From Chrysochromulina parva (Eukaryota; Haptophyta; Prymnesiales; Chrysochromulinaceae), in contig PJAB01000227.1 in NCBI GenBank assembly GCA_002887195.1, forward strand, positions 1 to 33,266: a stretch of DNA of 33,266 bases, read 5' to 3'. The notes beneath the pieces were generated by a model, which saw only the letters and a list, made by a program, of their open reading frames with translations, searched no databases and had not been told where the DNA came from. Positions 7,385 through 15,860 of the stretch are shown in pieces. The position numbers and the translations under genes were made by a program. Each line of letters begins with the position of its first letter. Position 1 is the stretch's first letter.

Positions 7385-9217
7385 TCCGCCGCCACCGCCT
7401 CGACCGCCGCGCCACCCCAGCCACCCCTTGCCGGTCAGCCGCCCGCGCCCGCACCCGCAAAAGCGCCGGCGCCGCGTGGCAGCATCAGCAAGCTGCTCGG
7501 ATTTGGTCCCAAGGGAAGCTCGCCCTCGCCCACGACGGCGCCCTCGCCCACGACGGCGCCCTCGTCCGAGCCAGCCGCCGCCCAGTCCGCCGCCGTGACA
7601 GCCCCACGTCCGCCGCCCGCGCCCGCGCCCGCGCCCGCGCCGCCGCCGCCGCCGCCGCCACCGCCAGCGCCGATACGAGTCCCCCTCCCCCCTCCCGCGC
7701 CTCCCTCCGTCGTCTCACCCACCAAGTTTGACGCCCTGAGCGTCGCGGCGGCCGAGGCGGCGGCGGCGCAGCTGCTGGCGGAGGAGGCGGCCTACTACGA
7801 CGCCGTCGCGCTGCATGCGTCCCTCTCATCCGAGGAGTCGCTCGAGGAACGTCTCAAGTCGAAGAGCGCGGATGAGCTCCTCAGCCATACCCTCGCTGCC
7901 CTCCGTGATGAATCTCCGCCCATCACGCCCGCACGCGACAAGTCAGCGGAACCTCTCGCCGCCACCGCCGAAGGTGCCGAGGGCCTCGACGGCGCCGACG
8001 CGCTGCCGCCGCCGCCGCCGATGGGGATTGACGAATTCGCGCGCGAGCTCGCCGCCGTGCAACATGCCTCCAGCACAGCGCTCAGCACAGCGCTCAGCAC
8101 AGCGCTCCTTCCGCGGCCTTCTTTAGATGCCGAGGTTGAGCGGCAGCTCGAGGAGTGCGAGGAGACGCTTGGGGCGTGTGAGCTCAACATTCAGCTCCTC
8201 CGCGCCACCCTGGTCGCTACGAGCCACTCGAAGCGACGCCCCCCGCCCGCCGCCTCCGCCGGCACCGCCGGCAAAGCCGCTGCGGCGGTGGAGGGCTTCA
8301 TTGCTTGCGAGCCTGTCGTGTCGAGCGTCGTGCTGAGCACGCTGCGCGAGACTCTCCCTCCGTCAAGGTACGTTGATTGCCACTCTGATGACCTGCCTTG
8401 CATGCAAGTGCTCACCATGGCGCGCTTGACTCTCCCTCCGTCAAGGTACGTTGATTGCCACACTGATGACCTGCCTTGCATGCAAGTGCTCACCATGGCG
8501 CGCGTGACTCTCCCTCCGTCAAGGTATTTGAGCTCGGCCGGCAGCGGCGGCAGCGGCAGCGGCAGCATCGGGGGCCACGCTGAAGCCGCCGCCGCCGCCG
8601 ACGCCGACGCGCTGCTCGAGAGCGCGCTCGACACGGCGCTCTTCGAGTACCATTCGGGTACCCTCGACGACGCGCAGCTCTCCGCGCTCGACACGGCGCT
8701 CGGGGTGGCACTCGCGGCGCAGCGCGTAGTACCAGGTGGCACCCTTCGTGCCCTGACCGACGATGCCGCGTGGCTGCCGGCCGCGCCGCAGCTCGCCATC
8801 GTAGGGGACGTCAAAGGGTACGGTGAGGCGGCGGCAGGGTACGATGAGTTCGAGGAGTACGAGGGCGACGATGCGTACGAAGGCCCCGACTATGACTACT
8901 ACAACGGCGAGGGCGGCGACGGCCCCGACGCCCACGCCGACGCCCACGACGTCGCTGAGCCTCACGGGCTTGCCGGAGCCCAGAGGGCCGCCGCTCTGCG
9001 TGAAGCTTGCCGGCGGGAGTTGGGCGTCGCCACGTTTGAGCGTGTGTATGCGTACCTGCGACGGCGCGACGAAGAGGGCGTGGAGGCCGAGGGCGAGGAC
9101 GACGACGAGCGCTGTGACGAGCGCATGCGCTCCGATCTGCTCAGCATCCTGGGCGAGTCGAAGCTGCGCCTCTGGCCACTCGTCGACCAGCTCGTCTTCC
9201 TTGACGAGTGCGGCTGA
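5150..9217 (+). CDS. NEK-family serine/threonine kinase, NEK1/NEK5-like, long tail
   Basis: Translation probably starts at ATG 5150 (MERYETLKKLGSG), where NEK kinases normally begin; 1355 aa if unspliced. The kinase domain spans about 4-265: glycine loop GSGSYGTV (11-18), Lys34, HRDLKTQN (131-138), DFG (152-154), and CPE in place of APE (177-179). Gly/Ala/Pro low-complexity runs follow, then a charged coiled coil with KEKEREKEKEKE at ~480-510 and three heptads ALNAQYG. The last ~75 residues (RRELGVATFERVY through ILGESKLRLWPLVDQL) resemble the C-terminal domain of NEK1/NEK5. Such kinases act at cilia, basal bodies and in the DNA damage response. An in-frame segment, 8368-8523, made of two 78-bp units bounded by AAG|GT, may be an intron; splicing it would leave 1303 aa. 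Confidence 0.88.
6883..6960 (+). repeat. 21-bp coding tandem repeat (ALNAQYG)
   Basis: Three near-perfect copies of a 21-bp unit encode ALNAQYG, followed by a partial fourth. They lie in the low-complexity linker of the NEK kinase. The DNA copies are almost identical, indicating recent expansion. Confidence 0.9.
8350..8523 (+). repeat. 78-bp tandem repeat with splice-like boundaries inside NEK gene
   Basis: The unit recurs at exactly 78-bp spacing (8350, 8428 and a partial copy at 8506), with copies differing at only a few bases. Each junction reads TCAAG|GTACGT or, at the last, TCAAG|GTATTT. Splicing from GT 8368 to AG 8523 removes 156 bp, keeps the frame and restores PPSRYLSSAG. Left in, the repeat codes for two copies of a 26-residue Cys/Asp-containing segment unlike the surrounding Gly/Ser/Ala-rich protein. 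I favour an intron, but translation through it is possible since it has no stop. Confidence 0.7.
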
Positions 9218-13487: not shown

Positions 13488-15860
13488 ATGGCGGCCGTGC
13501 AGCTCGCGACGCACCTCGGTCCCGTGGACGCGCTAGACTTTGGCTGCGCCGGGGCGCCTCTCGTCCTGTGCATACAGGGCAAGAGCGCCAACCTAGACGT
13601 CATCACAGAGTGGGAGCCAGCTGCCCGTGAGTTGGCCGCAGTGGGTCTGCGCGTGCTGCTGCCTAACCTGCACTCGAATGCCGCCACGAAGCCCGGCTTC
13701 ATGGCAAGCGTGGACACGGAGAAGCTACTCCTGGGCATCTACGAGCATGCGGGTGCCACAAGCGCAGTCATCATGGGCAAGTCATGGGGCGGCGGTGAGG
13801 CCGTGGCATTTGCCGCCGCTCACCCGATGATGGTGCGCATGCTGGTGCTGGTTGCGCCGTCGCTCACGGACACTTCTTTGATCGCCAGGATCGCGCGGCT
13901 GCCGGCAGTGCTCTTTTGGGCGCGCGACGACCCTGTCAGGAGCTTCGGGCTCTCGCAGCTGTACGTGGACGGCATGGCGGATGTGGTCCTGCACGCCGTG
14001 CCTCATGGCGGCCACCAGGTGCTCGATGAGTACCTGCCCACCCTGTGCACCGCAGCGTCCGACGCGCTGTGGGCGCCACCAAAGCGGCTGCACCGCGCGA
14101 CACACGTCGGCCGATTCGTGCGCGTCGAGCCTCTCGAGGCAGAAAGGCATTGCGACGAGCTCTTTGCAGCCTTCCAAGACGATCCAAGCCACAGCCGTTG
14201 GGCGTACAGTTTCCAGAGCGGCTTCTCAAGTCGCGAGGAGCTGTGGGCGTACCTCGCGAGCCTCGAGGCCGGCACGGGCGCCTACTTCGGCGTGTAAGTC
14301 GACCTTGCGAGCGACGGGCCATTGATTGCCTCTGATTGCACCTCATCCTATCTGCGTGCCCCCGTCATCAGGTAAGTCGACCTCGCGAGCGACGGGCCAT
14401 TGATTGCCTCTGATTGCACCTCATGCTATCTGAGTGCCCCCGTCATCAGGTAAGTCGACCTCGCGAGCGACGGGCCATTGATTGCCTCTGATTGCACCTC
14501 ATGCTATCTGAGTGCCCCCGTCATCAGGTACGTCGACCTTGCGAGTGGCACCGCGGCGGGTCTTGGCGCGCTGATGAGCGTCGCTCCAGAGGGAGGCACC
14601 GCGGAGATTGCGGAGATCATGATCTCGCCGAGGATTGCAGGCGCCGCCGCGGGCACCGAGGCGATGATCCTCCAGATCCGCGAGGCATTCGCGTGCGGCT
14701 ACCGTCGTGTCGAATGGTCGTGCGATCCTCACAATGAGCCCGCCATGCGGGCTGCGCAGCGACTCGGCTTTACGTATGAAGTCACCTTCCGCCAACGGTT
14801 CGTCCTAAAGGGTCGCACGAGCGATCAGGCAGTGTTCTCCATCACGCGCCCGGAGTGGCCCGCCATCGAGCGCTGCTATTGTGCATGGCTCGATCCGAGC
14901 AACTTTGGCATCGTGGCCGGAGGCATCGGTGAAAGCTTTGGTAAAGGCGTGGGTGAAGGCGTGGGATTATCGAGCGCGCCCGTAACGGCGCCTGCCGAGG
15001 CCGCCACACTCTTCAACAGACAGAAGACCAGCCTGAGCGGCATGACGGCTCCGCTGCTGAGCGCGACGCCTCCGCGGACCAACTGGCAGGCCCCCGTGTG
15101 GCAAGTGCACGACTCTGCTGCCGTTAGCATGCCCATCGGCCTGCCTGCCGTCAGCATACCCATCGGGCCTCAACTGGCTTCCGACTGGAAGCCGCCGCCG
15201 TCGCCGGTCCGACTGACGCTACGCGGCGCCCGTGTGGCATGCGTGCCGCTTGCTTTGGAGCACGCGAGCGCACTCCACGCCGCCTATGCCGGCGCGGGCG
15301 ACGTGCACTGGACATTCCTCTCGTACGGTCCGTTCGACTCGCCGGCGGCGCTCGGCGCATGGCTCGGTCCACAGACGACGAGCGCCGACCCGCTCTTCTT
15401 CGCGCTCGAAGTGAACGGCGTCGCCCTCGGCCTCGCCGCCTTCCTCCGCATCGCCGCCGCGCATGGATGTCTTGAGATAGGCCATCTGAGCTTCGGGCCG
15501 CAACTGGCTCGCACGCCGCCCGCGACCGAGGCGCTCTTCCTCATGCTCCAGTGGAGCTTTAGCAACGGCTACCGGCGCGTTGAGTGGAAGTGCAACGCGC
15601 GCCACGTGCGCTCACGCGCAGCCGCCCTGCGCCTTGGCTTCGTCTTCGAAGGCGTGACGCGCCAAGCCACAGTCGTCCGACAGCGCAACCGTGACACGGC
15701 GTGGTTCTCGATCCTTGACGCCGAGTGGCCTCGAGTGGGCGCGGCGCTCTCGGCGTGGCTCTCGCCGGCCAACTTCGACAGCGAGGGGCGACAGCGCCGC
15801 CGTCTGGAGGAGATTCGGGCCGGCATGGAGCCAGATGGGGGCTCATTGCTGCGCACTTGA
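13488..15860 (+). CDS. Alpha/beta hydrolase-GNAT-GNAT fusion, one repeat-built intron
   Basis: Exons 13488-14293 and 14528-15860 give 712 aa from ATG 13488. Residues ~10-200 form an alpha/beta hydrolase with nucleophile motif GKSWGG (Ser99), candidate Asp147/148 in ARDDP and His176 in PHGGHQ. Residues ~205-400 and ~490-685 are two RimJ/RimL-like GNAT acetyltransferase domains; both contain GYRRVEW(S/K)C followed by an RLGF helix. The intron falls inside GNAT-1: without splicing the frame stops at TAA within the donor GTAAGT, leaving half a domain, while the next frame starts with the missing half. Splicing in phase 2 gives AYFGVYVDLASG, which aligns with the second domain's FFALEVNGVALG. GNATs transfer acetyl groups from acetyl-CoA; substrate unknown. 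A Pro/Ser-rich linker with two MPIG/IPIG repeats joins the GNAT units. Confidence 0.8.
14294..14527 (+). repeat. Intron made of three exact 78-bp tandem units
   Basis: Units begin at 14294, 14372 and 14450, each starting GTAAGTCGACC and ending CCCGTCATCAG. The downstream exon at 14528 starts with GTACGTCGACCTTGCGAG, a fourth copy of the unit's first 18 bases with one change. Any unit's donor can in principle pair with any unit's acceptor, and each unit is a multiple of three. Units 2 and 3 are almost identical and unit 1 differs by a few bases. Confidence 0.85.

Follow-up and report, generated by a model that had tools for sequence, protein, structure and literature searches.

Neither the movement of introners nor the growth of new introns is fully understood, and both questions are raised by a locus of Chrysochromulina parva at which the two halves of a protein-coding gene are separated by three head-to-tail copies of a 78-bp unit. 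The window analysed here is the whole stretch of 33,266 nucleotides (contig PJAB01000227.1, forward strand) that contains this locus; its GC content is 65%, and it belongs to a 45-Mb genome assembly in 2199 contigs. Such an array could descend from a duplicated piece of exon, from a coding repeat, from an error of assembly or from a mobile sequence. With a probability of about 0.8, we read it as the outcome of a single insertion of an introner-like element into a gene for a GNAT-domain protein, followed by amplification in tandem.

Structure of the array and of its host gene

Both exons of the host gene were delimited by translation, alignment with the homologue P0001 and Pfam. Exon 1 (positions 13488-14293, + strand) begins with the ATG that corresponds to the first codon of P0001 and encodes an alpha/beta hydrolase part and the start of a first GNAT domain; exon 2 (14528-15860, + strand) encodes the rest of that domain and a second GNAT domain and ends with the stop codon. 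Between them lie unit 1 (14294-14371), unit 2 (14372-14449) and unit 3 (14450-14527), all on the + strand, an array to which Tandem Repeats Finder assigned a period of 78, 3.2 copies, 97% matches and a score of 469. All three units start with GTAAGTCGACC and end with CCCGTCATCAG. The observation of an earlier note that they begin with GTAAGT and end with CATCAG thus holds for each of them, and every tandem copy of this intron-like array carries a ready-made putative donor and acceptor. Unit 1 is composed of an 18-bp head (14294-14311), which is a copy of the duplicated site and holds the putative donor GTAAGT, and a 60-bp body that ends in the putative acceptor CATCAG. The same note had counted three exact 78-bp units. 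The number and the length are right, but the units are not exact copies: units 2 and 3 are identical at 78/78 positions, in line with its view that the last duplication looks recent, whereas positions 13, 54 and 62 of the unit set unit 1 apart from the other two. Likewise, the second exon does open with an 18-base copy of the unit head (GTACGTCGACCTTGCGAG, 14528-14545, + strand), but this copy matches the head of unit 1 at 17/18 positions, the single mismatch being GTACGT in the exon against GTAAGT in the units. An Rfam scan of the window gave no match at the gathering score.

At the two junctions inside the putative intron, 14371/14372 and 14449/14450, CATCAG directly abuts GTAAGT, leaving an exon of zero length. 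Recursive splicing proceeds at ratchet points of this form, where an acceptor directly abuts a donor, and has been described for very long animal introns. The array shares this zero-length-exon junction, here within 234 bp and between putative sites.

Read on from exon 1, the coding frame meets a TAA as soon as unit 1 begins (GTG TAA). The unit length of 78 is divisible by 3, so this in-frame TAA stands at the head of each unit, and a retained unit gives an immediate stop. Joining 14293 to 14528 yields 720 open codons. In Pfam the joined product carries an alpha/beta-hydrolase domain and GNAT domains, and once the array is removed the Acetyltransf_3 match spans the junction (profile positions 4-138 of 138). 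These features bear on the proposal that the units are coding repeats translated into protein, for which their length and the single unit that is open in frame in P0001 could be cited. However, the TAA opens each unit of the window, the conserved GNAT residues read through only without the units, and the excised lengths of 28 related insertions from elsewhere in the genome (described below) are distributed as 10, 9 and 9 modulo 3. We regard this proposal as extremely improbable, and for the array in the window the in-frame TAA rules it out.

Homologues of the host protein

A protein search returned 10 homologues, five of which were aligned (P0001-P0005). There is no insert at the site in P0003, P0004 and P0005, from which the 60-bp body is absent at the protein level, and unit-derived residues are found in P0001 and P0002. 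The latter is 99% identical and starts within the last unit, and is hence uninformative on copy number. P0001, known as a predicted protein, is 94% identical in this alignment and 90% identical in the protein search, and is encoded on a contig of 2396 bases. It holds one unit's worth of additional residues (YVDLASDGPLIASDCTSSYLSAPVLR), with Tyr at the position of the stop in the window. As judged from the protein, P0001 has a single unit whose donor position reads GTAC or GTAT, and this unit could be spliced or translated alike. The existence of a predicted protein with a single unit indicates that the array grew after the insertion. P0001 has Ser at both variable codons, so that two changes look derived: that of unit 1 at position 62, and that which units 2 and 3 have in common at position 54. 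At unit position 13 the change is derived when judged against the exon copy. No relative with a long non-repeated intron at this site was seen, one relative being readable there, as protein.

A dispersed introner-like family

The 60-base body was compared with its exonic surroundings and with introns elsewhere. Against the next 60 exon bases the similarity was low (z 0.8), whereas two introns of another gene, at locus L007, gave z values of 8.3 and 9.2. The exact subtype GTGCCCYCGTCATCAGGT is confined to the three units of the window and those two introns of L007, both single-copy. Searching the genome with the array retrieved loci where CTGATTGCC-like modules form a body with a CATCAG end, placed between two copies of a flanking sequence specific to the locus. 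Exact occurrences in the genome numbered 1655 for CCTCATCAGGT (control 5) and 471 for the 21-mer TGATTGCCTCCCTCATCAGGT (control 0), and the last 23 bases of the window unit were found at 335 places with <=3 mismatches (control 0). By all three patterns, similar intron sequence recurs at many unrelated sites of the genome, as is characteristic of introners. On these comparisons the 18-bp head alone is exonic, and the 60-bp body belongs to a dispersed introner-like family.

The earlier note had explained the array by tandem duplication of an AGGT-containing stretch that can at once be an intron. This corresponds to the classic model of tandem genomic duplication (the Rogers model), in which the duplicated stretch is exonic. 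Tandem duplication is known as a source of introns from single cases, as described in the available parts of the reports (PMC4974935, PMC3629103, PMC2395259), and the units are direct repeats with an exonic head and with GT and AG in each copy. Nevertheless, 60 of the 78 bp are non-exonic and part of a dispersed family, and P0003, P0004 and P0005 are uninterrupted at the site. Nor was an AGGT duplicated, since the exon bases that precede the GT of the site read GCGT and not AG. The model is very improbable for this array. Exon duplication as the origin was rejected, the body being dispersed and lacking similarity to the exon.

To describe the family, 55 loci (322,798 bases, partly overlapping) were dissected with the pattern TC[AC]TCAG followed by GT, together with an upstream copy of the flank also starting with GT; the GT after the acceptor was therefore demanded by the search and not discovered. 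The search found 35 events, of which 30 have a left copy and 5 lack one. The same body also occurs in arrays under other heads (L006 1535, L009 1260), which lie outside these counts. The flanking duplication, measurable in 28 of the 30 events, was 14-31 bp long. At the 3' end, the last 20 body bases carry 33 bits (consensus CTGATTGCCTCCCTCATCAG, n = 27), a figure inflated by ascertainment, because the last seven bases were demanded and loci L009-L038 were fetched by the 21-mer. The first 20 body bases carry 2.1 bits, with about 1.6 expected from the sample size (n = 27). The same kind of 3' end was found in the window and in four measured events of a random sample.

Of 47 distinct acceptors, 39 have a branch-like CTRAY motif at -45 to -9 (against a mean of 4.6 in shuffles), and in 29 the A of the motif falls at -17. 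These counts share the ascertainment of the 3' end and include units of one array, which are not independent. In the random sample CTRAY was read there by eye at 4/4 measured ends. A separate motif count in that sample was set aside as a measure of enrichment, because CATCAG repeats within bodies inflate it and the reverse-complement control also scored (3/20 against 4/20). In the window units CTGCG or CTGAG stands at -17, where the branch-like site usually lies, and the nearest CTRAY is at -37.

Route of insertion

The fixed 3' end, the ragged 5' end and the long, variable site duplications hint at a retrotransposition-like route, which we put forward more weakly than the family itself, as a lead only. 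Together they form the signature of TPRT-type insertion, with the ascertainment of the 3' end to be borne in mind, and amount to a resemblance, not to proof; the genome contains five RVT_1 matches. We give just short of even odds to the alternative that the family inserted via a DNA transposon or as filler DNA at staggered breaks. In the available parts of PMC9860276, some introner families have short duplications and inverted ends, and in our events the best inverted match between the two ends slightly exceeded that of shuffles (mean 5.5/12 against 5.1, sd 0.2). Repair of staggered breaks would fit the variable 14-31 bp duplications too, and telomere-like inserts with long flanking repeats are present in this genome. 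This alternative is disfavoured by the duplications, which vary in length and, in the 28 of the 30 events that could be measured, exceed the 3-9 bp typical of DNA-transposon introners, and by the lack of a common 5' end as opposed to the conserved, if partly ascertained, 3' end. The inverted match reached 9/12 at most and gave no clear inverted repeat. The genome offers many young insertions, and their signatures are unlike those of DNA transposons, the type preferred as an explanation for many introners.

The telomere-like inserts are made of CCCTAA variants between direct repeats of 24-30 bp (L049 675-782 and L048 7940-8063). The repeat at L049 contains GAGGT and could be a potential source of both splice sites.

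Tandem copies across the genome

Tandem copying is not peculiar to the window. In 186 cases CCTCATCAGGT is followed by another after 45-75 bases (control 0), which corresponds to about one end in 9 of the 1655. Among the 30 dissected events there was one body in 22, two in 3, three in 3, four in 1 and five in 1, a share of arrays that is inflated because loci were fetched via matches to the array or its end; in a random 180 kb, 0/5 dissected events were arrays. The unit length, taken from 100 of the 186 pairs, had a median of 72.5, with 22 pairs in 66-68, 5 in 69-71, 16 in 72-74 and 19 in 75-77, classes that differ by roughly one module of 10-11 bp. Such a step of one 11-bp module is visible within a single array of five bodies (L016 1767-2113), whose units are 76, 76, 65, 65 and 65 bp long. 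In a two-unit array that had been scored as one body (L025 1281-1620), the first acceptor is CATCAA and the last CATCAG, from which the internal sites seem dispensable. In the window and in L002 it is the first unit that diverges most, a pattern that L003 does not follow.

The fragmented assembly and the identity of units 2 and 3 might suggest that the copy number in the window is an assembly error and that only one or two units are really present. Counting against such an error are the general tendency of assemblers to collapse repeats, the three sites that distinguish unit 1 and the 186 tandem pairs elsewhere; we see very little likelihood in it.

One array was met twice. The copies in contigs C42 (G000, 42390-42630) and C387 (L002 1475-1699) occupy the same duplicated site and differ in their module letters, and represent a duplicate gene or an allele.

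Reading frames and domains across the excised segments

A codon-score frame test was applied to 28 of the 30 events. The frame was kept across the excised segment in 16/28 events. Where both sides had clear frames (17 events), it was kept in 14, against one third expected (P = 4.7e-5). The three clear-frame events in which it was not kept (L025, L028 and one of those at L055) perhaps reflect misjudged event limits; L025, for instance, has two units. Among the 16 frame-keeping events, 13 would be open if spliced and none if unspliced. Joined proteins from seven of the 30 events were submitted to Pfam, and in six of them a domain extends across the junction: ubiquitin hydrolase (L022, two units), Neurobeachin WD40 (L003, four units), U-box (L034), chromodomain (L035), Fn3-like (L010) and GNAT (the window). 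For the seventh, L055, Pfam shows no domain at the junction. As read from the DNA, members of the family interrupt genes, and their predicted excision restores the protein.

A proposed stepwise history of the array

For the array in the window, the simplest order of events would be insertion, donor change, duplication, divergence and a recent second duplication of unit 2. In the first step, the 60-bp body would have been inserted before GTACGTCGACCTTGCGAG, duplicating those 18 bp. The body would supply the acceptor CATCAG together with a pyrimidine-rich stretch and modules that resemble branch sites, the left copy of the duplication would provide the donor and the right copy would remain exonic, so that splicing would restore the original protein. 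A shift of the donor from a GTACGT-like sequence to GTAAGT would have followed. In the third step, the unit, consisting of duplication and body, would have been copied by unequal exchange or replication slippage between direct repeats, from one unit to two and then from unit 2 to units 2 and 3.

Since each unit junction reads CAG/GT, one-step splicing and stepwise splicing in any order should yield the same mRNA: partial splicing would regenerate a donor, and every path would end in one product. Extra copies should for this reason be nearly invisible to selection. The arrays unite introner insertion and tandem duplication, usually rival models, in one readable stepwise history, and they provide a natural test of stepwise splicing at zero-length-exon junctions in short introns. 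A bolder extension, which we consider possible but doubtful, is an RNA-templated intron factory, in which genes would receive copies of intron ends, each made from a fixed 3' end and flanked by a site duplication of 14-31 bp, introns would multiply in place into head-to-tail arrays, CAG/GT junctions would serve as recursive-splicing ratchets in introns of a few hundred bases, and growth would be nearly cost-free.

Comparison with known systems

The available parts of the introner survey by Gozashti et al. 2022 (PMC9860276) give duplications of 3-9 bp for some earlier families and of 4 bp in Chrysochromulina, and describe an introner with one splice site of its own and the other from the duplicated target site. 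The family described here resembles those introners in its near-identical dispersed introns and in taking one splice site from the element and the other from the target duplication; it differs from them, as far as that account goes, in its duplications of 14-31 bp, in the lack of a common 5' end and in the frequency of tandem pairs. The word "tandem" is absent from the main text of the survey. For Amoebophrya introners, direct repeats of 3-5 nt are given in the parts available of PMC7789003. Direct repeats of 4-30 bp, with a mean of 11.4, were reported around introns of many kinds (PMC11782384, in part), and long flanking repeats as such are therefore not unheard of. No report of tandem introner arrays was found among the literature matches listed (the best 20 of 598 for one query), a search whose scope leaves most subscription journals outside.

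Introns of tandem repeats are described for two fission yeast genes, with units of 24 nt (PMC4974935, PMC3629103; available sections). The array is like them in having GT and AG in each tandem copy and unlike them in its unit, which is exonic in those introns and here appears to combine a mobile body with a site duplication, the intron predating the tandem copying. In the Cryptococcus gene CNN00420, according to the parts available of PMC2395259, strains vary in how many copies they carry of a unit with an entire intron inside it, a variation attributed to slippage or unequal exchange. That repeat includes exon ends, each copy adding an exon and an intron, whereas nothing exonic lies between the units here. 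The stwintrons of Hypoxylaceae are compound introns from proliferating intron sequences (PMC8469720, in part); in these, a second intron splits a splice element of the first, without flanking duplications in the account available, in contrast to the head-to-tail whole units and long duplications of our arrays.

A second array in the window and other observations

The window contains a second tandem array at 8344-8526, with 78-bp units in 2.3 copies and a different body, TTGCATGCAAGTGCTCACCATGGCG, whose core has 410 exact copies in the genome (control 0). Its donor GTACGT would fall in the body and its acceptor AG in a 24-bp flanking repeat. This array is open in frame within a 1409-aa kinase ORF, so that splicing is not implied, and a protein search with it found no relatives. 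The 21-mer of the main family had no match in viral_contigs. The 23-mer of the second family had one, at 4495-4517 of L057, a phage-like contig in IMG/VR; the match lies close to the end of this contig, which is 4554 bases long and possibly a chimeric assembly. Finally, at two further loci, L040 (1-9999, + strand) and L050 (1-9450, - strand), very large stop-free ORFs run over nearly the full 10-kb stretches.
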